64,000 nt of DNA from Verrucomicrobiales bacterium (GTDB lineage Bacteria; Verrucomicrobiota; Verrucomicrobiia; Limisphaerales; UBA11320), in contig JAEUHE010000167.1 in assembly GCA_016793885.1 (NCBI GenBank), forward strand, positions 1 through 64,000, given 5' to 3'. Shown here piece after piece: positions 293-49,582 of the stretch (the stretch's first letter is position 1; every line of letters begins with the position of its first letter). The notes below the pieces were generated by a model. It saw nothing but the letters and a program-made list of their open reading frames with translations. It was not told the origin of the DNA and searched no databases. A program made the translations under genes and the position numbers.

Positions 293-1915
293 ATGGCATC
301 AACGACGGACATCTCCGGTAAAGCTGAGGAATTGGGTCTTAACCCGGACCACCTGATTCCCTACGGAAAAGACAAGGCCAAGATTTCACTTCAAGCGCTC
401 GCCGGAAAGCCTCAGCGCGGAAAGCTCATCCTCGTTTCCGCGATCACACCGACACCCGCGGGCGAAGGTAAAACCACCGTCTCGATCGGATTGGCCCAAG
501 GACTGCGTAAGAACGGCCAATCGGCGGCGCTCGCCCTACGCCAGCCCAGCATGGGACCCGTTTTTGGTAGAAAGGGTGGCGCCACCGGAGGTGGACGAAG
601 CACGGTCCAGCCTGCAGAGTCCATCAACCTGCATTTCACCGGCGACTTTCATGCCATCACGGCCGCGCACAATCTCCTGTCCGCAGTCATGGACAACGCG
701 CTGCACCAAGGCAGCTGTCGACTAGACCCGTCCAAGCTCCTGTGGAAGCGAGTTTTGGATGTAAACGACCGAGCGCTGCGGCACATTCGCACGGGGCGAG
801 ATGCCGCTACCGAACGAGTCACGGGATTCGATATCACCGCCGCTTCCGAGATCATGGCCTCGCTGTGTCTCGCCGAATCCCTGACCGATCTGCGCGCACG
901 TATCGATCGTATTGTCGTCGGGTTCACGTCGTCGGGGGAGCCTGTTTTCGCGAAGGAGCTGCGGGTTACCGGCGCGCTAATGGCATTGTTGCGTGACGCC
1001 ATGATGCCCAATCTCGTCCAGTCGGCGGAAGGAGTGCCGGCCATTCTTCATGGAGGCCCTTTCGCCAATATCGCCCACGGCTGCAATTCGGTCATCGCCA
1101 CGCGCATGGCGCTCGCGCATGCGGACTATGCGGTCACGGAAGCCGGGTTCGCCTTCGATCTTGGCGGCGAAAAATTCATGAACATCAAGTGCCGACAGTC
1201 CGGACTCGCTCCGGATGCGATCGTGATTGTAGCGACCGTCCGCGCGTTGAAGATGCATGGAGGCGTGGCGCTCGCCGATCTTCAAAAGACAGACCTAGCG
1301 GCGCTGGAGCGTGGCTTGGACAACCTGGCAGCACATCTTGACAGCGCGGCACTGTTCAAGCGTCCCGTGGTGGTGGCGGTCAACCGCTTCACTGCCGATC
1401 ACGAGGACGAACTCGCGGCGGTCCATCGATTCTGTCGGTCCCGTGGGGTGGAAAGTGCCACCGCCGATGTGTTCGGTCAGGGCGGTGAAGGCGCTCGCCA
1501 ACTGGCCGAGTTAGTCGTGAAAGTATCCACCCAAGCCTCCCCGCCCTTGCCCTGGATCTATGACGCCAAGCACACGGCCGAGGAAAAGCTCCACCGCATC
1601 GCAACGCAGATTTACGGCGGAGATGGCGTCGAGCTCAGTACGCAGGCGCAGGAACGACTCGAGGTGCTGCGTCGATGCGGGTTCGGAAATCTTCCGATCT
1701 GCATGGCCAAGACCCAGAACTCCCTCTCCGACAACGGTGCGCTACTGGGGCGGCCCAAAGGGTTCAAAGTACAGGTTCGCGATTTCGAAATCGCCAACGG
1801 AGCGGGCTTCCTCGTCGCCTTGAGCGGAACGTTATTACGCATGCCCGCGCTACCCAAGGTCCCGGCCGCCGAACGAATCGACGTGGCTCCGGATGGCCGG
1901 ATTACCGGCATCTGA
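293..1915 (+). CDS. fhs: Formate-tetrahydrofolate ligase
   Basis: Catalyses ATP-dependent joining of formate to tetrahydrofolate, giving 10-formyl-THF for purine synthesis and one-carbon metabolism in the cytoplasm. At 540 residues it is close to the family's usual 555 or so. The nucleotide-binding loop TPAGEGKTT is at about residues 54-62. It is followed by the family segment QPSMGPVFGRKGGATGGG and, later, by a block containing FDLGGEKFMNIKCR. All the conserved blocks that can be recognised by eye are intact. The start ATG at 293 gives the family-typical N-terminus (SGKAEELGL); another ATG at 285 is out of frame. It appears monocistronic, with repeat DNA before it and a 256-base spacer after it. 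Identification is secure; its physiological role (assimilation or formate disposal) cannot be told from the window. Confidence 0.97.
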   Translation: MASTTDISGKAEELGLNPDHLIPYGKDKAKISLQALAGKPQRGKLILVSAITPTPAGEGKTTVSIGLAQGLRKNGQSAALALRQPSMGPVFGRKGGATGGGRSTVQPAESINLHFTGDFHAITAAHNLLSAVMDNALHQGSCRLDPSKLLWKRVLDVNDRALRHIRTGRDAATERVTGFDITAASEIMASLCLAESLTDLRARIDRIVVGFTSSGEPVFAKELRVTGALMALLRDAMMPNLVQSAEGVPAILHGGPFANIAHGCNSVIATRMALAHADYAVTEAGFAFDLGGEKFMNIKCRQSGLAPDAIVIVATVRALKMHGGVALADLQKTDLAALERGLDNLAAHLDSAALFKRPVVVAVNRFTADHEDELAAVHRFCRSRGVESATADVFGQGGEGARQLAELVVKVSTQASPPLPWIYDAKHTAEEKLHRIATQIYGGDGVELSTQAQERLEVLRRCGFGNLPICMAKTQNSLSDNGALLGRPKGFKVQVRDFEIANGAGFLVALSGTLLRMPALPKVPAAERIDVAPDGRITGI

Positions 1916-2171
1916 CGCGTTTTTTAGGGTGCTGAGGCGGCTCGAGTGTCTACGGTAGGAGTGCCCGCGGCGGACCGAGGCTACAACCAGGCAAGGCTGG
2001 GGTCGGACGACAACCGATCGCCTCCGCTCAAGGGCGTGCTCAGAGCGACGATACTCCCATCAGACGAGTCGGAACACGGGGATCGATTTTTCATTCAAAC
2101 TCCCTTGAATCCTTGGGAGGGAGGATGTTACCTTCTCTCACTGTTACCCGACAACCCAGCCACTTCTTAAT

Positions 2172-5100
2172 ATGTATAAGAACGATTCCTCGGATCGTCC
2201 TCCTCGCTCACCGGAGTTCGTCTTTCGTTGGTTCTCGCTGCTCGGCAAGAGTTTACTCCTAGCTCTAGGGCTCGCTTGCGGTGGGGGTTTGCCGGTCGCC
2301 CTCCAGGCGGCTGAGTCGGTCCTCATCTCCGAGTTCATGGCCAACAATTTTCGGACCTTGGCCGACGAGGACGGTGATTACCCGGATTGGATAGAGCTGT
2401 ACAATAATGAAACGAGCCCGGTGAACCTTCAGGGCTGGTATCTCACCGACAGCAAGACGAGCCTGAAAAAGTGGCGATTTCCGGCGGTCAGTATTCAGCC
2501 GAAGGGCTATCTGGTGGTTTTCGCGTCGGACAAGGATCGGACGTCAACGTTCGGGCCTCTGCACACGAACTTTAAGCTAGCGGCCGGAAGTGGTTACCTG
2601 GCTTTGGTAGCGTCCAACGGTGTCACGATCGTTTCGCAGTATTCGCCGTCCTATCCAGCGCAGGTTGCCAATGTGTCCTTTGGCTTCCCTGCCCAGGACA
2701 ACGTGGTCTCCCTGCTGTCGGCCGGGAGCCCGGCCAAGATTTTCGTCCCGAGCGATGAGAGTCTGGGTAAGGATTGGACCACCTTGGACTTTCAGGATAA
2801 CGCCTGGTCCGCGGCTACGAACGGGTTAGGCTACGACGCAGATCCCACCATCGTGATCACCCCGGTGGTGCTGGCGGATTCCTATCGGGAATTCACGGGA
2901 ACTCAGGGCCAAAGCAATTGGTTTTACGGCTACTGGGACCGCCGTAACGACCTGGATGGTGTCTATAAGCCCAGCGAGTTTCGGGCCTTCCCTCGCACCA
3001 CGGCAACCGTCTTTTCAGCGGATAACTTTTTCGCAAACAACACCTGGCGATGGTTTCCGTCAGCCGATGCTACTACGGAAATCACTCGCCTAGGGGGAAT
3101 CGCCTCCAGTGAGAACGGGATCACCGGGCGCGCCGATCATTGGACGGTTCGACGCTGGATCAGCGAGACCAACGGGCTGGTCCGGATCTATGGCATGCTG
3201 GCCGACGCCTCGCGCTGCGGGGATGGAGCTAGTGGTGATGGCATCATCGGCCGCATCTTCGTCGACGGGGTTGAGATCTTCGCGCAGAGCATCCAGGAAG
3301 GGGGCAACGGATATAGCGTCCAAGCCAACTTGACGGTCGGGGCGGCGGTGGATTTTGTGATCGACCCGGGTCCTGCCTTGCGCGACGACTGCGACAATGC
3401 CGCGTTCACGGCTCTGATCGCCACCGAATCGTCAACCTTCGAGGTGCTGGCGGACTCGGCGGCGGATTGGTCGGTGTCCGGGGATCAAGGCTCCCTCAAC
3501 TGGCACTATGGCTATTACGATCGCTCGAGCGACACGGTGGCGAATTATCAGACCAACGATTTCAAACCATTCACCGACAGCTTTTGGAACGGGACCGAGT
3601 GGATCTGGCCGGACGGCAATCCACCCAACGATCGGATTGGCCGTCGGATCATGCGTCCCAATTCCTCCAGCAATGGAGGGGAGCATTGGCCGATTCGACG
3701 ATGGATCAGCAAAGTCACTGGCAACCTCACGGTACATTGGCGGGTGGGCAAACTGGCCAACACTGGATCGGGACTTACCGCTCGCATCTTTCACAAAGGG
3801 GGAACCGCGAAGCTTTCGGCCCTGCTGACGAGCACTAATTTGTTGGGCACCAACAACACTCTCGTTTTGACCGGAGTCCAGGCCGGCGACCCGATTGACT
3901 TCGTGGTGGATCCCACGGGCAGCGCTGGCGCTTCGGACGACGTCGGCGACTTGGCTGAGTTCGACGTTCGCATTTTCGGAAACGCCAGCCTCACTCCCTA
4001 TGTGCTCTCGGACGTGAAGTCCAAGCTCCAGAATGTCAACAGCTCGGCGTACGTCCGGATTCCGTTCAATGTCGCGAACGCCGGGCTCTTTGAAAGCCTA
4101 TCACTGCAGGCTCGCTACGATGCGGGTTTCGTCGCTTACCTGAATGGAGTGGAAGTGTTGCGGCGGAACGCTCCGTCGGAACCGATTTGGAATTCGGCCG
4201 CGACGGCTGAGCGCAGCGATGCCGATGCTGGAGTCTTGAGCCGGTTTGACATCTCTGCCTTGAAAGGATTGCTGAGAAATGGGCAGAACGTGCTGGGCTT
4301 CCATGTCTTGAACAGTTCGCCAGCGGATTCGGACGCCCTGATCCAGGCCACTCTGGTTGGCTCCTATGTCACAACTGATTTTGCGAATCTGCGCTATTTT
4401 CCGAACCCGAGCCCCGGGACAGCGAACGGATTTGGAAACACCAACCTAGGTCCGTTGATCTTGGATGCCAAACATTCGCCCAAGCGTCCCCAGGCCGGCG
4501 AGCCCTTGCTGGTGACCGCGCGGGTGGAACCGAGCTTCAAGCCCGTCGGGCCGGTACAACTCGTCTACCGCATTCACTATGGAACGGAGACCAATGTCAC
4601 CATGCTCGATGACGGTCAGCATGGGGATGGCGCGGCGGGCGATGGAGTCTACGGGGGCACCATTCCTGGTACCGCCTATCAAGCCGGGAACATGGTGCGG
4701 TACTACATCAAGGCTACGGACACGGGAACCAATGCTTCGCGCGACCCTGTTTTCGTGAAGGGAAAGCAGATGCCGGAATATTGGGGAACCGTGGTTCACA
4801 ACCCGGCCCTTACCAATCCGCTTCCGGTGCTCCACTGGTTCTCTCAAACCGCCACCGCCGGCGATAGCGGTGGCACCGGTTCGATTTTCTACAACGACCA
4901 GTTCCTGGACAATGTGCGGTTCGGCATCCATGGCCAGTCCAGCTCCGGATTTCCCAAGCATAGTTTCAATGTAGATCTGAACGCCGGGTATAAACTGGTG
5001 TGGAAGGAAGGCGAGCCAGGCATCGACGACATTAACCTCCTAACGACCTACCCTGATAAATCCAAAATGCGGAATATGCTTTCCTACGGGGTCTTCCAGA

Positions 5101-40802: not shown

Positions 40803-42974
40803 CTAGGGTGCCATCGTCGAGCTGCGGCTGCTTCGCGGCGAAGAACGTCCGGCGGCCCAGCGCATGAGAGTGGCCTCCAGCTCCCGCGGCCGCAGGGGCT
40901 TGCTCAAATAGTCATCCATGCCGGCGTGCAGACAGAGGTCCCGATCGCCCTGAACGGCGTTGGCCGTGAGGGCTACGATAATCGGGCGCTCGCGCTCCGG
41001 CCAGCGCTTACGGATCTCAGCCGCAGCCTCATAGCCATCCATCACAGGCATCTGAACATCCATCAGCACTAGGTCGTAGCTCGACCGTGCCAACTCGTCG
41101 AGGGCCTCTTGACCGTTGCCGGCCACCGCGGGCGCATATCCCATTCGACGTAACATCGTCGAGGTTACCCGCTGGTTCACGATGCTATCATCAACCAGGA
41201 GGATCCGCAGCGGCGAGGCCTCTGCGACTCCGCGGTTGATCTCAGCGGATTTGGGTGGGCACTTAGTCTCGGCATCTAGTCCGAAGGCTCGGCACAGCCC
41301 CTCCAACAGCTGTCGACGGCGCAGCGGCTTGAAGACGGACGCCTTGATGCCCAGGGCGCGATGCTCGGAATCCTCGCCACGCAGGCGCGAGCGGCTGAGG
41401 AGCACCACCGGGATGGACTCCCACCCAGGCAATCGTCGGAACGACTCGACCAACTTGACCCCCGGCAACTCGGCCAGGTGCTGGTCAACCAGCACCAGGT
41501 CAAATGGGGTCTTCTGAATCATGGCGTTCAAGGCTTCGCTACTGCTGCCCACCACCGTGGGAACCGCATGGAACTCGCGACAATACATTTCCAGGATGCG
41601 GCGGTTGGTGGCGTTCTGCTCCACGATCAGCAGTCGACGCCCCTCCAGACCGGCCGTCACCTTCTCGACCGTCTCGGGCGCGGAATCGGCCTTCAAGGAA
41701 ATGGTAAAGTGGAATACCGAACCCCGGTTGACTTCGCTCTCCACCCACATCCTTCCATGCATCAGCTCGGTGAGCTTCCAACTGATCATCAACCCGAGTC
41801 CGGTACCCCCGTATTCGCGCGTCGTGGAACAATCAACCTGACTGAAGGGCTGAAAGAGTCGGTCCATTCGGTCGCTTGGAATGCCGATGCCAGTGTCCCG
41901 AACCGAAAAGTGGAGAACTTGCCGGTCCGCCCCTTCGGCTGACCCGACGCCTGTCGAGGCCTCAACCTCGACAATCACCTCGCCCGAAGAGGTGAACTTA
42001 ACCGCGTTGCTTAGCAAGTTGAGGAGAATCTGCCTCACCCTCGTGACATCCCCCAACACTTTTCCTGGCACGGCGGGGTCAACCCACTGGGCCAGTGTCA
42101 GGCCCTTTTCAGCAGCCTTCGGAGCCACGAGTTCAAGGGATTCTTCCAGGCAGGCCCGCAGGTCAAACGCGCGCTCCTCCAGCTGCATGCGACCCGCTTC
42201 AATTTTGGAAAAGTCCAAAATGTCATTGATGATCGCGAGCAGAGCCTCGGCGCTATTCCGCACAGTCTCGACGAAGTCTCTCTGTTCGGAATCAAGGGAT
42301 GTATCCATGAGCAGCGTGCTCATGCCAATGATTCCATTCATCGGGGTTCTGATTTCATGGCTCATGTTCGCCAGGAACTCCGATTTCGCTCGGGTCGCCT
42401 CCGCGAGCCGCTGATTCAGCATGTTGAGATTCGTGTTCGCCACCACGAGCTGGTGTTGGCTGTCACGCAGGGCAGCGAAGGCCGCGTCTCGTTGCCTTTG
42501 AGCCTGATGCACTCGAGCGTGGTACCGGACTCGAGCCACCAGTTCGAGACGATCGGGCAACTTCACCAGATAGTCATTAGCCCCCGCCGAGAAGGCGTCT
42601 TTCTTGGTGACGGAATCCTCCCGTACGGATAGGACGATCACGGGCGTGTCCCGTAATTTGGGAGAGCCACGGTAGTCTCGCACCAGGGAAAGGCCATCGA
42701 TGCCCGGCATAACCAGATCCTGCAGGATCACCGCTGGGTGCAGCTCCTCGGCTAGGCGCAAGGCTTCCGTCGGCTCGGCGCAGTAATGAAAAATGATGCC
42801 AGCCTCGCCCATGAACATCCGGCGGACCGACTCGCCCACCAGGGCCTGATCGTCCACGAGCAGCACCATCAGCTGTTCCGTCGAGCTATTGACCCAGGCG
42901 GCATCGCCCGATGTGCCGGGCGCCGAAGTGTTCATTGCCTGGTTCGGTCCGCTATAGTTCTTTGAGTCTAACAT
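40803..42974 (-). CDS. WspR-like receiver fused to a hybrid histidine kinase
   Basis: A 723-residue signalling protein with the order receiver, HisKA, HATPase, receiver, receiver. The first receiver (about 36-155; acceptor Asp86 in [13 protein letters not shown]) and the coiled linker after it closely resemble the receiver of WspR ([29 protein letters not shown]). In WspR this leads into a GGDEF domain; here it leads into HisKA with His206 in SHEIRTP, and a full HATPase with N (NLLSNAVKF), G1 (DTGIGIP) and G2 (GGTGLGL) boxes. Receiver 2 (about 450-570) has LVDQHL; receiver 3 (about 597-715) has the acceptor in [11 protein letters not shown]. No membrane segment. It lies 84 bases downstream of the CheA gene and is probably its phosphorylation target. 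No cyclic-di-GMP enzyme domain is present. An alternative start is 42935. Confidence 0.9.
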
Positions 42975-43023
42975 TGTCTTCCCTCTCCACGGCGTGGCTC
43001 ACCCACCCCGGCACGAGTTCGAG

Positions 43024-43040
43024 GGGTGCCCTCAGCACCC
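43024..43040 (-). promoter_or_regulatory. Small hairpin between cheA-like and hybrid-kinase genes
   Basis: GGGTGC and GCACCC pair around a five-base loop in the 84-base space between the two genes; short flanking GAGG/CCTC-type pairing may extend it. It could attenuate read-through from the chemosensory operon into the kinase gene. There is no T-run. Weak evidence. Confidence 0.25.
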
Positions 43041-43058
43041 ACCTCGCTTGCCTCACCC

Positions 43059-45392
43059 TCAGGCAGCTGGTCCGATAAGGTCCCCCACGGCCCTAATTAA
43101 GGTATCGTCATGAAAGCTCCCCTTCGAAAGGTAGTAATCTGCACCAGCTTCCAATCCTCGGAGCCGATCTTCCTCGCGATCCTTATACGAGACGATCATC
43201 GCGGGGACCGAACGCAGCTTCCGATCACGCTTGACCATCGAGATGAGCTCAATCCCATCCATTCGTGGCATGTCGATGTCGCTGATCAACAGCTGGAAAT
43301 CTCGGTCTCTGAGGGCGTTCCATCCGTCCATCCCATCCACCGCCACCTCCACCTCATAGCCGCGCGCAGTGAGAATCTTTCGCTGCAGTTCTCGAACGGT
43401 GAGGGAATCATCGACCACCAGGATCCGCTTGCCTCTGCGCTTCGCGTCGCCTCCCCCCTGCCCTTCGAGCCGATGCAGTGATCGGCTGTTGGCGAGCTTC
43501 TCAATGCTTCGGATCAAATCCTCGGAATCGACGATGAGGATGGGGGAGCCATCTTCCATGATGGAGCCCGAGCTGATGTCCTTGATTTTGCCCAATCGTG
43601 CATCGAGCGGCTGCACCACCAACTCCCGCTCACCCAAAAACCGATCCACGGATAGTCCGTAGCGCTGGTTGGTCTCCCCCAGAACCACAATGCAGAGGGA
43701 TCCTGACTGGGTGGCAGGCTCAGGATGCCCGAATATCTGATGACTCGAAACCAGTCCGACCCGTTTGCCCTCGAGGCGAAAATGCTGGATGCCTTCGAGC
43801 GATTCGACAGCTTCGCGGGGCAATTTGACGGTTCGAAGCACGTGAGCCAAAGGGAAGGCATAAGGCTGACCGGCGATCTCCACCAGCAGGGTCCGGAGCA
43901 CGGAGAGGGTCAGGGGAAGCTGCAGCTGAAACCGAGTTCCTTTGCCGCGTTCAGAAGTCACCCGGATGGTGCCTCGGACACTCTTGACCACGCTCTGAAC
44001 AACATCCAAGCCCACTCCGCGTCCCGAGATTTCCGTCACTTCCTCCCGCACGCTGAACCCCGGCAAGAACAGGAACTCCAGCAACTCGGCCTCGCTAAGC
44101 ACGGCGGCGGTTTCGGCCGTGGTGAGCGATCGCTTAACCACCGTCCGACGCACCCGCTCGATTTCGATGCCTCTCCCGTCGTCGCTCACCGTAATCACCA
44201 GCCGCCCGGCGCTGTGGCGCGCCTCGATTCGAACCGTCCCCTCCGCTGGCTTGCCAACAGCCTCGCGGTCGGCGGTAGACTCCAGACCATGGTCAATCGC
44301 ATTGCGGACCAGATGCGCGAGAGGAGCCTCAAGCTTTTCCAAGATGTCACGATCCACTTGAGTGCCCTCACCGACGAGGACCAGCCGCACCTCCTTGCCC
44401 AAACGTCGGCCCACATCTCGCACCATTCTTGGGAACCCGTTCAAGCCGTCGGCAAAGGGCCGCATCCGGCAGGCTAGAGCCTCGTGGTAAAGCCGGTATG
44501 AAAGATTCGCGGATCGTCGATCGAACATGTCCAGCTCGGTGAACCGGTTGGCCAGCAGCTCTTGACAGTCCTGCAGACACTTTCTGGAGGCGTTCCAAGC
44601 CGTTTCCGTCCGCTCGTCGATGAACAGGCCGCTCAGGGACTCGCGCAGAACAGCCATGGACCGCTCCATGTCCGAGTGAAGCGACTTCAGGCGTAGCAAG
44701 GACTCCCCAAAGGGACGAAGCCAGCGCGACTCCACCAGGGACTCACCCGCGAGCCCAAGCATGCGATTGACATGCTCCGCTTTGACGCGCAGGACACGAT
44801 CCATGCGCCCCGACTCAATCGGCGACGAACTCGCTCCGGCGGCCGGCGGAGGGGCTGGAGGAGATGGCGGCGGGGGCGCGGGTTGTTCCGGCTGAGTAGG
44901 CGGGTTCGACACCGCCGGGCCTATCGGGGTTGCGACCGCGGCAGCTGGGGCGGCGGATAGTGGCCTCGCGGTCTCCACAGGCTCGCCCTTGAGCACGGAG
45001 GCTAATTTGTCGAGGTGCGCTTCGACCTCGGGCTTTCCCTCCGTTTCCCATTTCCCCAAATCGGGTTCCGGTGTCTGTGAGATCCTGGCCAGGAGGTCGA
45101 CGGAAGCCAGCAGGATGTCGACCTGCTCGCGCTGGAGCTGGAGCACGCCCTTCTGGACCGCCACCATGCAGTCCTCCATCGCGTGAGCCACTTTCACCAC
45201 CGACCCCAGATTAACGATCCTGGCGGCCCCCTTCATCGAGTGGGCGGCCCGCATCATTTCCTCCAGCTGAGCGCGCACCGATGGGTCCTTCTCCAACGCG
45301 AGCAGCCCATTGGTTAGCAGGGACAGCTGGGTCTCGGCCTCCGTGCGGAACAGCTCCATCAGTGAGCATTGGCTCAGATCTTTGTCGCTCAT
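43059..45392 (-). CDS. wspE: CheA-type histidine kinase with C-terminal receiver (WspE-like)
   Basis: A 777-residue cytoplasmic kinase of a chemosensory array. The HPt domain carries the phosphorylated histidine at His51 (RAAHSMKGAARI). A Pro/Ala-rich linker (about 150-195) leads to the dimerisation region, then the HATPase core (LAHLVRNAIDHGLES, VSDDGRGIEIERV, GRGVGLDVV), a CheW-like regulatory domain (about 500-635), and a receiver (about 656-777) with acceptor Asp705 in LLISDIDMPRMDG. No CheY/CheB-binding P2 domain is evident. The CheA-receiver fusion is the hallmark of WspE and other alternative-function systems. The start overlaps the upstream CheW stop by four bases (ATGA). It should phosphorylate the WspR-like receiver of the following gene. 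Confidence 0.93.
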   Translation of the reverse strand: MSDKDLSQCSLMELFRTEAETQLSLLTNGLLALEKDPSVRAQLEEMMRAAHSMKGAARIVNLGSVVKVAHAMEDCMVAVQKGVLQLQREQVDILLASVDLLARISQTPEPDLGKWETEGKPEVEAHLDKLASVLKGEPVETARPLSAAPAAAVATPIGPAVSNPPTQPEQPAPPPPSPPAPPPAAGASSSPIESGRMDRVLRVKAEHVNRMLGLAGESLVESRWLRPFGESLLRLKSLHSDMERSMAVLRESLSGLFIDERTETAWNASRKCLQDCQELLANRFTELDMFDRRSANLSYRLYHEALACRMRPFADGLNGFPRMVRDVGRRLGKEVRLVLVGEGTQVDRDILEKLEAPLAHLVRNAIDHGLESTADREAVGKPAEGTVRIEARHSAGRLVITVSDDGRGIEIERVRRTVVKRSLTTAETAAVLSEAELLEFLFLPGFSVREEVTEISGRGVGLDVVQSVVKSVRGTIRVTSERGKGTRFQLQLPLTLSVLRTLLVEIAGQPYAFPLAHVLRTVKLPREAVESLEGIQHFRLEGKRVGLVSSHQIFGHPEPATQSGSLCIVVLGETNQRYGLSVDRFLGERELVVQPLDARLGKIKDISSGSIMEDGSPILIVDSEDLIRSIEKLANSRSLHRLEGQGGGDAKRRGKRILVVDDSLTVRELQRKILTARGYEVEVAVDGMDGWNALRDRDFQLLISDIDMPRMDGIELISMVKRDRKLRSVPAMIVSYKDREEDRLRGLEAGADYYLSKGSFHDDTLIRAVGDLIGPAA

Positions 45393-46096
45393 GCTAGACT
45401 CCGGTTGAGAAGATCAAAAAGACGGCCTTCCTCGAGCAGCCCGATCGACTTGCCCTGCCAACTCAGAACGCCGCTCACACATCTCGATGGGTTGTGGCCA
45501 ACCGTGGCGGGGAGATCCTGCAGCTCACCCGGACGGAGGCGCAGTATCCCATGGATTTCATCAACCGGAAATGCGAAGCGATCCCGGTCATGGTCCGCGA
45601 TAAGCAGCCTCATCTGACCATGGCTGCCAGGTCGGTCCGGAGTCACGGGCAGCGGCTCCAACCCCAGGGCAGCCGTCAGAGACACGCAGATGACCAACTG
45701 CCCCCGAACGTTGACCACCCCTTTCACCACGCCCTGGCGACGGTGGGGGATAGGACGGAGCACCTTGAGGTATCCCACCTCCTGAAGGGCCTTCATCTGG
45801 ATGGCAAAGCACTCCTGCCCAAGGCGGAAAGCGAGCACGGATTGAGTGCTGAGCGCGACATCGGCTTTCTTCTGACCGAAATGATCCGCCCACTGGTCCC
45901 GGTAGCTGGGAGGCATCTCTCGGTCCAGGAGTTCTGCGGCTGCGGCTGAGAACACGGGGCAGTTGTGACAGTGAACATGCTGGCGCAGCGCCTCGCAGCG
46001 CCCATTCCCCCAAATTCCAACCTGCTTCCAGCAAGGCGTTGCGTGGACGGTAGCCGCGGTAGGCGCTTCGGGCGTTAGGGATGTGTTGTCGCTCAT
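45389..46096 (-). CDS. wspD: CheW adaptor with cysteine-containing N-terminus (WspD-like)
   Basis: A 235-residue CheW protein that couples the receptor to the CheA-type kinase. The first 75 or so residues form an extension with CWKQVGIWGNGRC and HVHCHNCPVF, a cysteine arrangement that matches WspD from memory of the family. The CheW domain follows (about 85-235), with VLAFRLGQECFAIQ, VVKGVVNVRGQLVICVSL and a conserved C-terminal part. The cysteines could bind metal, but this is not established. It overlaps the methyltransferase gene by four bases upstream and the CheA gene by four bases downstream, so all three are translationally coupled. Confidence 0.9.
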   Translation of the reverse strand: MSDNTSLTPEAPTAATVHATPCWKQVGIWGNGRCEALRQHVHCHNCPVFSAAAAELLDREMPPSYRDQWADHFGQKKADVALSTQSVLAFRLGQECFAIQMKALQEVGYLKVLRPIPHRRQGVVKGVVNVRGQLVICVSLTAALGLEPLPVTPDRPGSHGQMRLLIADHDRDRFAFPVDEIHGILRLRPGELQDLPATVGHNPSRCVSGVLSWQGKSIGLLEEGRLFDLLNRSLA

Positions 46097-47352
46097 GGCA
46101 ATCGTTTGAAGTCCACCTGAACTCTTCGCGCTCGCGCGCGCAGCGTGCTAGCCTCCTCCTGGTCTCCCAGCCGTTCGCGCAGCAAGGCGAGATGAACCAG
46201 TGATTCGTAGTGGTGGGGATCGAGATAAACCGCCTTCCGGTACAGTTGCACCGCCTCCTCCATGCGGCCCTCGGCCTCGCGAATCAGGGCCAAAAGGCTC
46301 AAGGCTTCCACGCAATCCATACCCTCCTTGAGGATGGATTCGCAGATGGCAGCGCTTTCGGCTGCCAATCCTTCATTGGCCAGCCGGCGGGCACGGATCA
46401 GATCTCGGTTTGGAGTTCTTGCCTGAGTGTGGGTATCGACCACCGGGGCTGGAGTTCCCGTCGTTGGTTCCGGGTGTGAGAGCAGGCTGAGTGCCCGGCC
46501 ACGGGAGGCAGGTCCGCCCGCGGGCGCAGACATTCGGTCCACTCGACAAGCGTAAGTCGAGCCCAACTTCTCCAGACGAAAGGGGCCTCGTCCAAAGCAA
46601 CGATACTCGCTGGCTCCGCAGAACAGAAAACCGTCCGGTCGCATGAGGCGAACCAGATGCTCCATCGGACGCCGGCGAGTCTCGGGTCGGAAATAGATAA
46701 AGAGGTTCCGGCAGAAGAGGAAATCGACCGGCTCGGTGCCAGCCAGGAAGAGCGAGGATAGGAGGTTGTCGTGATGGAACGTCACCTGCGAGCGAACCCC
46801 TTCCTGAAGCTGATAGCCTTCTCCACATGCCTCAAAATATCGGCTGCGAAAGCCGAGGTTTCCACCTCGAAAGGAGGCCTCCGCGTACAATCCTTTCTCG
46901 GCGCGCCGCAGCGACCGTCGGCTGACGTCCGCCGCGAGAACCACAAACTCGCCAGGGCTGAGGCCGGCGTCCAGCAGCGCCATCACCAAGGAGTACGGCT
47001 CCTCTCCTCCGGAACATGGAACGCTCAGAATGCGAAGGGGAAAGCGGCGCTTGGCGGACCGACGGGCTTGCCGGGCCAGCGACACCATCATGTCGATGGC
47101 TTCAGGCTCGCGATGGAACCAGGTCTCCGGAACGACCACCTCATCGATCAGGTTCTGCAGTTCTTCGGGATCCGAGTCCAGCAACGAAAGGTAGTCCGCG
47201 GGATCTGAGAGTCCCAGGGCCTCCCGCCGGGTCTGCAAGGCGCGCTGCATGGACCGGGTCGTCAAGGTTCCGAGGTCCAGACCAATCAGCTCCTGAATCC
47301 GCCTGGCTGCGAGCTGGACCCCTGAACTCTTGGTTGAGATCGGTTGCGTCAT
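46093..47352 (-). CDS. wspC: CheR methyltransferase with TPR tail (WspC-like)
   Basis: A 419-residue SAM-dependent methyltransferase that methylates receptor glutamates. The catalytic domain (about 10-270) contains VPETWFHREPEAI, the SAM-binding ILSVPCSGGEEPYSL, and CRNLFIYF before the last strands. A linker rich in Pro and Thr follows, then tetratricopeptide repeats (about 330-410, ALIREAEGRMEEAVQLYRKA, YLDPHHYESLVHLALL). The CheR-TPR layout is that of WspC. It starts 24 bases after the first CheW gene and overlaps the second by four bases. No CheB methylesterase gene accompanies it, so receptor demethylation must come from elsewhere or be absent. Confidence 0.92.
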   Translation of the reverse strand: MTQPISTKSSGVQLAARRIQELIGLDLGTLTTRSMQRALQTRREALGLSDPADYLSLLDSDPEELQNLIDEVVVPETWFHREPEAIDMMVSLARQARRSAKRRFPLRILSVPCSGGEEPYSLVMALLDAGLSPGEFVVLAADVSRRSLRRAEKGLYAEASFRGGNLGFRSRYFEACGEGYQLQEGVRSQVTFHHDNLLSSLFLAGTEPVDFLFCRNLFIYFRPETRRRPMEHLVRLMRPDGFLFCGASEYRCFGRGPFRLEKLGSTYACRVDRMSAPAGGPASRGRALSLLSHPEPTTGTPAPVVDTHTQARTPNRDLIRARRLANEGLAAESAAICESILKEGMDCVEALSLLALIREAEGRMEEAVQLYRKAVYLDPHHYESLVHLALLRERLGDQEEASTLRARARRVQVDFKRLP

Positions 47353-47376
47353 CGGATGGCGATCAGGGGTTGTCAG

Positions 47377-47829
47377 TTAAGCGGCCGCAGGCAGAGCCTC
47401 CGCGCCGAGGAACGAGGAGAGACCATCCACCTCCACACGCCGCACCACCCCTCGAAAGTCCCATGCCACCGGGCCGAGGTAGGGTGCCAGGCTCATCCTC
47501 TCGCTGGTCGCCTCGAAGCTACCGGCCGGAAGCGAAATCATTTCGGTGGCTTTACCCGAGATCAACGCCAGCGGACGAGCGGCGCCCCCGGGAGGCTGAA
47601 CGTTCAGGAGCACCAAGCGCGTGCTGAGCCGGGAGGGAGCCGGTTGGCTTCCCACCAACAAGCCAAAATCCACGACGAGCACTGAAGTTCCGTGATAGTG
47701 CAACAGGCCGGCAACCGCAGGGCGAAGCTGGGGCAGCCGATTGATCGTCACCAACGGCAGAACTTCGATGATGCGGTTTGCCGGAATGGCATACCTTTCG
47801 GCACCGACTTGTGACAGAAGGAACAACAT
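47377..47829 (-). CDS. wspB: CheW adaptor (WspB-like)
   Basis: A CheW-type scaffold protein of about 150 residues linking the receptor to the kinase. The domain begins almost at once (MLFLLSQVGAERYAIPANRI) and includes IIEVLPLVTINRLPQL and GLLHYHGTSVLVVDFGLL. The ATG at 47829 is chosen because it lies just after the receptor stop at 47840 and matches the short N-terminus of WspB; an in-frame ATG at 47865 and a longer frame to 47934 would overlap the receptor gene. It lies second in the operon. It may serve a different face of the array from the larger CheW protein at 45389-46096. Confidence 0.85.
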   Translation of the reverse strand: MLFLLSQVGAERYAIPANRIIEVLPLVTINRLPQLRPAVAGLLHYHGTSVLVVDFGLLVGSQPAPSRLSTRLVLLNVQPPGGAARPLALISGKATEMISLPAGSFEATSERMSLAPYLGPVAWDFRGVVRRVEVDGLSSFLGAEALPAAA

Positions 47830-47839
47830 ACCCGCAGGC

Positions 47840-49582
47840 TCAGCTGTCCACCTTTCGCCCCTCATCGACGGGCCGATCGGAATTGCGGCGCAATTCCAGC
47901 GACGCGATCCCTCGCGGGCGCTCCGGCACACCAACCGCCGTCTGCAGCTTGAACTGACTCACGGCGTTGCGAAGCATTCGCGTCGCCTCATTCAAACGTT
48001 CAATGGTCTGATTGGATTGCTTCAGCGAGTGGACGGTCTGCTGCGTGGATTCACCCAGCTGAACGAGCGCCGAGCTAATCTGCGACGCGCCAACCGCATG
48101 CATCTGCATCCCTTCGTTCACCGTCTCGAATCGCGGCGTTAAAGCCTGGACGTGACCGATAATCTCGTTCAGTTGAGCCCCCACCTGGTTCACCTCCTGC
48201 ACGCCGCGGCGCACCTCCTCAGAGAACTTGTCAACGCTCATCACCCCGGCGCTCACGGCAGCCTGCATCTCCTTTACCGTCTGTTCGATGTCATGGCTCG
48301 CGACCGCCGTCTGATCCGCCAATCGACGAATCTCTGTGGCGACCACGGAGAACCCGCGCCCGTACTCTCCAGCTTTCTCGGCTTCAATCGCAGCGTTCAG
48401 TGAGAGCAGGTTGGTTTGGTCCGCGACCTTGGCGATCGTGGTCACTACTTGGCTGATGCTCCCGGCCTTCTCGTTCAAAACCGTCAGCTTGCCACTGATC
48501 CCGCTGGCCGCCCCCATGACCTGCACCATGGTCTCCTGCATGCGCAGCAGCCCGCTCTGGCCATTTCCCGCCATGGTAGTGGTTTGCTCGGCGACTTGGG
48601 CCACCTCTTTGACCGTTTTGACCAACTCCTGTGAAGTGACGGAGATCTCCTTGGCGGTAGCCCCGATCTCCACGGTGGTGGAAGCAGTCTGCTGAGCTCC
48701 GCTCTCGTGTTGCCGCACGGCGCTGGCAAGGTTCGATGCAGAGCTGTTGACCACGATGCCCGACTCCTGCACTTGGCTGACGAGCGCGCTGAGGCTGTCA
48801 GCCATATGATTGTACCCATCGGCTAGGTCGCCAAACTCATCCCTTTGGCCCGCTTCCAAACGCCCAGTGAAATCACCCTCGCGCATGCGCTCCATGGCCT
48901 CAGTGAGCCTCGTGAGCGGCTGGTTGATGGCTCGGACCAAAAAGTATCCGCTAAAGAACACAATCAAGATGGAGGCGCAGATCCCCGCCAATATGCCGGC
49001 CTCCGCGTTGAGCACGGCACTTTGGATCTTGTTCCCAGCCAACTCACCGGCCGACTGCTGACGCTGTTCCGTCAGCGTCACCACATTGAGAAAGGCCTTG
49101 TAGGATGGTTCAACCTCCGAGATGACGCGCTGCAGCTTCTCGTTCACCTGGCGAGGATCCATGGTGGCCACCGCGACACAGGCATCCAGATACCGTTTCA
49201 GAGCAGAGTTCACCGGCTGAGCCTTAGCGCGATCTTCAGCACTGACGGCTCCGAGTTCGTAATCCGCCGCCATGGTCTTGATCGTGTTCAGCTCGGACTC
49301 CAGTTCGCTGAGGGCACGCTGACTCGCGGCCGGATCGGACAGGACGGTGTGCTTGTGGATCAAGCCGAATAGCTTACTCGCTTGGGAATCAAGCCGGTGG
49401 ATTAAAGAGAGCCCTGATAAGGAATCGCGGCTGAGCCGATGAGCGTCATCCTTGATGACCACAAGTCTCGTCAGGGCATAGCCCCCGAGTAGCACCGTGA
49501 TCAGAATCTCAATCCCATAACCCAGGATGAGTCGATTACGAACCGTCCAAAACCTCCGCGTATCGTTAAGCCCTTTTGCCAT
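47840..49582 (-). CDS. wspA: Methyl-accepting chemoreceptor (WspA-like)
   Basis: A 580-residue membrane receptor and first gene of the operon. Transmembrane helices lie at about 17-37 and 190-215. Between them is a helical sensor region of about 150 residues that fits a four-helix bundle. A HAMP domain (about 216-268, INQPLTRLTEAMERMREGDF) leads to the cytoplasmic coiled coil. The signalling tip reads DQTNLLSLNAAIEAEKAGEY and continues GRGFSVVATEIRRLADQTAVA, which matches WspA-type receptors closely. No C-terminal CheR/CheB-docking pentapeptide is seen. In pseudomonads WspA senses surface contact or envelope stress; the stimulus here is unknown. Confidence 0.92.
   Translation of the reverse strand: MAKGLNDTRRFWTVRNRLILGYGIEILITVLLGGYALTRLVVIKDDAHRLSRDSLSGLSLIHRLDSQASKLFGLIHKHTVLSDPAASQRALSELESELNTIKTMAADYELGAVSAEDRAKAQPVNSALKRYLDACVAVATMDPRQVNEKLQRVISEVEPSYKAFLNVVTLTEQRQQSAGELAGNKIQSAVLNAEAGILAGICASILIVFFSGYFLVRAINQPLTRLTEAMERMREGDFTGRLEAGQRDEFGDLADGYNHMADSLSALVSQVQESGIVVNSSASNLASAVRQHESGAQQTASTTVEIGATAKEISVTSQELVKTVKEVAQVAEQTTTMAGNGQSGLLRMQETMVQVMGAASGISGKLTVLNEKAGSISQVVTTIAKVADQTNLLSLNAAIEAEKAGEYGRGFSVVATEIRRLADQTAVASHDIEQTVKEMQAAVSAGVMSVDKFSEEVRRGVQEVNQVGAQLNEIIGHVQALTPRFETVNEGMQMHAVGASQISSALVQLGESTQQTVHSLKQSNQTIERLNEATRMLRNAVSQFKLQTAVGVPERPRGIASLELRRNSDRPVDEGRKVDS

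Follow-up and report, generated by a model that had tools for sequence, protein, structure and literature searches.

A Wsp-type chemosensory operon with a WspR-derived hybrid kinase and without WspF in a verrucomicrobial genus

What becomes of a chemosensory system of the Wsp type when its CheR-type methyltransferase, WspC, is kept and its CheB-type methylesterase, WspF, is gone? This question is raised by an operon on contig JAEUHE010000167.1 of a Verrucomicrobiales bacterium (assembly GCA_016793885.1), of which the first 64,000 nucleotides (hereafter the window) were analyzed. An initial annotation had read this operon as wspA-B-C-D-E with no wspF between the CheA gene and a following kinase gene, and had suggested that the system is locked on, as it is in Pseudomonas upon loss of WspF. 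Results of the present study point to a Wsp-descended phosphorelay with a changed output, whose methylation branch has been dismantled or re-tuned or is vestigial, rather than to a system that is simply locked on, although we regard this as no better than an even call.

The wsp operon and its output gene

Six minus-strand genes lie in a row in the window, encoding a chemoreceptor (MCP), a CheW, a CheR with TPR, a second CheW, a CheA with a receiver, and a hybrid kinase (Table 1). By order and sequence orthology, with 36–52% identity to the Pseudomonas aeruginosa PA7 locus (L101, the reference for Wsp identities), the first five are wspA-B-C-D-E, and the Pfam domains agree with the order given in the initial annotation. 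A chance origin of this match is excluded because of the E-values and because about 100 other loci show this gene order too. For wspB, the listed open reading frame begins at 47934, and homologues fit the ATG at 47829 better. A search for a CheB fragment in the 84 bp from the wspE stop to the ATG of the next gene found none, confirming that wspF is missing between the CheA gene and the kinase while the methyltransferase is retained. The N-terminal cysteine motif of WspD (C-x10-12-C-x7-9-C-x2-C, window 45959-46033) was present in 86 of the 106 WspD sequences read and could be a metal binder.

The output of the system was found in the sixth gene. Residues 35–186 of its product matched WspR residues 37–188, i.e., the receiver and stalk, with 59% identity over 152 residues, and Pfam revealed that the GGDEF domain of WspR was replaced by HisKA-HATPase-REC-REC. 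Judging from its wspR position and its WspR receiver, this gene (40803-42974) is part of the Wsp system. This corrects the initial annotation, which had treated the kinase gene as a neighbour beyond the operon. The receiver Asp and Lys were conserved in 25/25 aligned hybrid kinases, and the phosphorelay residues of WspE, REC1, HisKA, and REC3 were intact, with an EQ instead of the usual ED pair in REC2 of the window's kinase.

For comparison with other Wsp systems, 80 loci were kept from a scan of a genome contig collection with the window's WspE, and further loci were fetched from relatives (18 loci, 58 genomes searched) and from the class (13 loci, 141 genomes searched), giving 112 loci with the window. 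After removal of three duplicates (L036, L037, and L051, with a duplicate check that covered 11 of the 80 contig-collection loci against the 18 from relatives), of L152 (32–34% identity, not a Wsp locus), and of L151 (contig ending inside wspE), 107 loci remained. L037 is a record of a member of the window's genus labelled Akkermansia muciniphila, and it looks like a mislabelled assembly.

At the wspR place of these 107 loci, the outputs were GGDEF (64), hybrid kinase (27), SpoIIE-type (PP2C) phosphatase (7), and other or cut genes (6), with none shown in three, and kinase-output Wsp systems were present across verrucomicrobia. The receiver-PP2C phosphatase was identified in the verrucomicrobial loci L154, L155, L159, L160, L163, L164, and L147, of which four were assigned by Pfam and the remaining three by 85–97% identity to the scanned ones. 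Among the other or cut outputs, L161 encoded a PAS-HisKA_3-HATPase protein, and L041 and L148 only a receiver. An output gene was looked for and not found in L162, and in the two loci of genome G180 (L164 and L165) the upstream genes were not assignable as wspA, wspB, or wspC.

Loss of WspF and the CheB proteins of the genus

A tblastn match to WspF was detected in 103 of the 107 loci, all readable past wspE, and was absent in four, namely the window, L135, L136, and L137, which represent four genomes of one genus. In the WspE tree, these four loci formed one clade (support 1.0) with a sister group (L158, L157, L045, and L046; support of the joint clade 0.9) that has both WspF and the hybrid kinase. 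Since the WspF-less clade is nested beside WspF-bearing kinase-output systems, the loss is a derived event that postdates the kinase output. The synteny comparison with related verrucomicrobia, in which the others keep WspF, thus identifies the absence as a single loss: on the evidence of these sequences, WspF was lost once, in the ancestor of the window's genus, and its absence is not a phylum-wide trait. Complete loss was seen in 4/27 hybrid-kinase loci versus 0/64 GGDEF loci, counts of loci in which the four losses are one event. An assembly gap behind the missing wspF was rejected, given the same arrangement with intact flanks in four separate draft genomes.

Partial changes of the methylation genes were observed elsewhere. 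L141 (genome G014), counted among the 103 loci, retains a 78-residue in-frame WspF remnant composed of the start and end of the protein and lacks wspC, and L149 (genome G012) has WspF and has lost wspC; both are verrucomicrobial. In G001, the fifth genome of the window's genus (draft assembly, 81% complete), all that is left of the cluster (L221, about 600-4545) is wspA, wspB, and a fusion gene that joins the WspC catalytic domain in frame to both C-terminal receivers of the hybrid kinase. The junction contains no N, and this locus has neither wspD nor wspE nor the kinase core.

The whole genome of the window's organism harbored six CheB, all on other contigs than the window. Full che clusters account for three of them (C20, C149, and C150), the fourth is fused to a CheR (C61), the fifth has a CheW and an MCP nearby (C93), and the sixth belongs to a CheR-CheD-HDOD-CheB module on C42, whose domains were named from the G001 and G003 counterparts and the HDOD gene itself. 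Identity of the six to PA7 WspF was 30–38%, compared with about 40–67% for the WspF of relatives, and the possibility that one of them is a relocated WspF was rejected on this basis. No dedicated cheB, which would have counted against the initial annotation, was thus found elsewhere in the genome, and the only CheB of G004, another member of the genus, likewise sits in a separate module of the CheR-CheD-CheB type. This module recurs in the genus (L167 in G001, L172 in G003, and L034 in G000); G000 and G003 have the HDOD gene as well, and no CheA adjoins the module. In addition, an orphan CheR-TPR gene (L032:9469-10656) with 31% identity to the window's WspC was detected in the same genome, and a blastp comparison with the Wsp proteins of the window revealed no chemosensory neighbours of it.

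Receptor and methyltransferase after the loss

Changes in the receptor accompany the loss of WspF. Two helix regions of WspA, which we take to be methylation regions from the general consensus for such sites, were located in the window's receptor, and their motifs turned out to be altered in the genus. Across the alignment, WspA of the WspF-less clade deviated at 10/101 columns conserved in other loci, and six of these ten columns fell in the two regions, which hold 19/101 conserved columns (hypergeometric 0.003, post hoc). In the five genus members read, the first region has G or S at the position of a nearly invariant T, and the second has H at that of a nearly invariant Q. Moreover, WspA extends 33–34 residues beyond its conserved end in 5/5 genus members (two of them counted by eye), compared with 0–4 residues in 78/83 other scored sequences, after seven rows were dropped because their frame was incomplete or their C-terminal motif could not be scored. 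According to a survey of Wsp clusters (PMC8552884), WspC and WspF are likely to dock at the conserved C-terminus of WspA.

Evolutionary rates were compared on one fixed topology with 84 taxa, three of them WspF-less (G002 was excluded for its cut WspD), with branch lengths taken relative to WspE and the clade set against the rest. Relative rates in the WspF-less clade were 1.84 for WspC and 1.75 for WspB, compared with 1.17 for WspA and 0.99 for WspD, and 19 control clades of 3–6 tips each, partly nested, ranged from 0.84 to 1.33 for WspC and from 0.55 to 1.44 for WspB. In pairwise comparisons, from which rows below 75% of the median length were dropped, the WspC/WspE distance ratio was 2.64–2.70 in the three WspF-less pairs and did not exceed 2.28 in any of the 3617 others, and 0.8–2.4% of other pairs reached the WspF-less values for WspB. 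Conserved columns revealed that the S-adenosylmethionine site and the catalytic motifs of WspC were kept in the WspF-less clade, and WspC as a dead enzyme was rejected on the retained catalytic columns.

These observations bear on three other explanations. A CheB encoded elsewhere could still demethylate WspA in trans, and the CheB of the CheR-CheD-HDOD-CheB module is the best candidate for this role: a CheB of this type was present in 5/5 genus genomes and is the sole CheB of G004 (a genome with four receptors), the catalytic motifs of WspC are retained, and the length of the tail gained by WspA could tether an enzyme. The module, however, carries its own CheR and CheD, lies apart from the CheA, which is of a different type (like that of C45 in the case of G004), and also occurs in G001 with its broken wsp cluster, and the identities of the six CheB of the window genome to WspF are low. 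In enteric receptors, an aromatic-type C-terminal end tethers CheR and CheB. Such an aromatic end was observed in 3/3 non-Wsp receptors of G004 and in seven receptors of the window genome, several ending in FKDF or FRDF, but not on the WspA protein of either genome, nor on four further window-genome receptors. Demethylation in trans is therefore possible but not indicated, and we judge this explanation unlikely. A cluster in decay, with wspF lost as the first gene and the rest to follow, would account for the acceleration of WspC and WspB, the reduced cluster of G001, and the acidic residue lost from REC2 in the window; since the four WspF-less members read have open frames and intact phospho-sites in WspE, HisKA, REC1, and REC3, and since WspE, WspD, and WspA evolve at ordinary rates, decay seems decidedly unlikely.

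The locked-on state proposed in the initial annotation, in which WspC methylates WspA irreversibly and the kinase output is constitutive, is what an intact WspC beside an absent WspF would suggest, and wspF mutations do switch the system on in Pseudomonas (PMC8552884). Nevertheless, a permanently active sensor would be unlikely to hold its receptor and coupling protein at the ordinary rates measured for WspA and WspD, and the methylation-type motif is changed in exactly the WspF-less clade. The claim, carried over from Pseudomonas, is not supported as it was put, because the hybrid-kinase output in place of a diguanylate cyclase, the shifted motifs and C-terminus of WspA, and the shifted rates of WspC and WspB mean that the Pseudomonas phenotype cannot be assumed here; we consider constitutive locking very improbable.

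A phosphorelay with a dismantled or re-tuned methylation branch, which we prefer to these explanations, also meets with contrary observations. The kept catalytic motifs of WspC mean that methylation may still matter, and the deviations of WspC at conserved columns (2–5/47 in the WspF-less clade) do not exceed what the most divergent loci outside it show (as many as 7). WspB is accelerated like WspC with no obvious tie to methylation, and only three genomes, all of a single clade, underlie the shift in rates. Furthermore, the limits of the methylation-type regions were set after inspection, L141 and L149 keep most of the methylation-type motif without wspC, so the motif does not simply decay with loss of the branch, and all genus members read are draft assemblies.

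Under the preferred phosphorelay, WspA, coupled via WspB and WspD, would control WspE, and phospho-WspE would phosphorylate the WspR-type receiver of the hybrid kinase, which would hand the phosphate via its own receivers to some Hpt or response regulator, with no direct synthesis of cyclic di-GMP. The single loss of WspF, in the ancestor of the genus, followed the acquisition of this kinase output. Without a local esterase, WspC would set at most a one-way level of methylation, so that methylation-based adaptation would be lost and the signal would presumably be terminated by other means, e.g., the receiver of WspE itself. The receptor may have been adjusted by the altered methylation-type motifs and the gained 34-residue tail, with WspC and WspB evolving faster and WspA overall, WspD, and WspE at ordinary rates. 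More tentatively, and with somewhat less than even confidence, we propose a natural Wsp lineage without reversible methylation adaptation, in which WspC acts one-way or on a new site, the receptor compensates by changed helices and a length-conserved tail that maybe docks the TPR of WspC, and the verrucomicrobial front end is an interchangeable module joined to several outputs (hybrid kinase, PP2C phosphatase, HisKA_3 kinase, or bare receiver).

Table 1. Features of the wsp operon, with positions in the window
Feature	Position	Strand	Evidence
wspA-like chemoreceptor, 580 aa (4HB, HAMP, MCP signalling domain)	47840..49582	-	Pfam; 45% to PA7 WspA, 548 aligned positions
First methylation-type helix region, WspA residues 277-312, altered in WspF-less genus	48647..48754	-	
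Second methylation-type helix region, WspA residues 481-534; Q-to-H change, 5/5 genus members	47981..48142	-	
34-residue WspA C-terminal tail past conserved end	47843..47944	-	
wspB-like CheW	47377..47829	-	Pfam; 36% to PA7 WspB
wspC-like CheR with TPR, catalytic motifs kept	46093..47352	-	Pfam; 39% to PA7 WspC; conserved columns
wspD-like CheW with N-terminal cysteine motif	45389..46096	-	Pfam; 38% to PA7 WspD
wspE-like CheA (Hpt, HATPase, CheW) with C-terminal receiver	43059..45392	-	Pfam; 52% to PA7 WspE, 786 aligned positions; phospho-site motifs kept
84-bp gap at wspF position of relatives; no CheB coding remains	42975..43058	-	
WspR-derived hybrid kinase REC-HisKA-HATPase-REC-REC, 723 aa	40803..42974	-	Pfam; REC and stalk 59% to PA7 WspR; phospho-sites
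WspR-type receiver and stalk, hybrid kinase residues 35-186	42417..42872	-	Match to WspR; Asp and Lys conserved

Comparison with known systems

The operon resembles the surface-sensing Wsp system of Pseudomonas (wspABCDEF-R) in the A-to-E order, the orthology of all five proteins, and the presence of WspR's receiver and stalk in the output protein, and differs from it in the absence of WspF from the window, the HisKA-HATPase-REC-REC domains in place of GGDEF, and the changed tail and methylation-type motifs of WspA. Signalling without CheB is also found in chemotaxis of the Helicobacter pylori type, which works without methylation adaptation and has neither CheB nor CheR, unlike the window, which keeps its CheR-TPR. 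The H-type systems of Burkholderia likewise join a WspR-type receiver to a histidine kinase without GGDEF. The WspH of B. cenocepacia and B. multivorans (L218 and L219, loci from a plasmid collection), however, has 377 residues, is encoded upstream of wspA, has no counterpart of the two C-terminal receivers, and shares only about 26% identity with the window's protein in the kinase core; WspF is present in both loci. An identity of the verrucomicrobial hybrid kinase with WspH was rejected on size, position, and kinase core, and from these differences the swap to a kinase output looks independent of that in WspH. A search for WspH in the genus around locus L094 yielded only WspR-type loci and unrelated kinases.

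In the ACF-class clusters with CheR-TPR described in PMC3447774, the CheR-TPR likewise stands beside a receiver-histidine kinase fusion, and about 40% of the ACF multidomain response regulators carry a kinase module, as reported there. WspF does not appear in the main text of that paper and none of the CheB passages seen in it deals with CheB loss, whereas the window is a WspF-less case. The survey of 794 clusters (PMC8552884) described Wsp as confined to beta- and gammaproteobacteria and its H type as confined to Burkholderia, and it required wspA-wspF synteny; clusters like the window's would therefore be excluded from it. Wsp genes are also listed in Planctomycetes in PMC6461901, so Wsp outside the proteobacteria is not itself new. 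A literature search, with most subscription journals outside its scope, found no publication on a natural Wsp system without WspF. PMC8552884 also predicts a lesser role of WspA methylation in H-type systems, and this prediction becomes testable here, as the only complete WspF losses seen fall in the kinase-output type; the fate of the receptor and the methyltransferase can be followed in a lineage that has kept WspC but not WspF.

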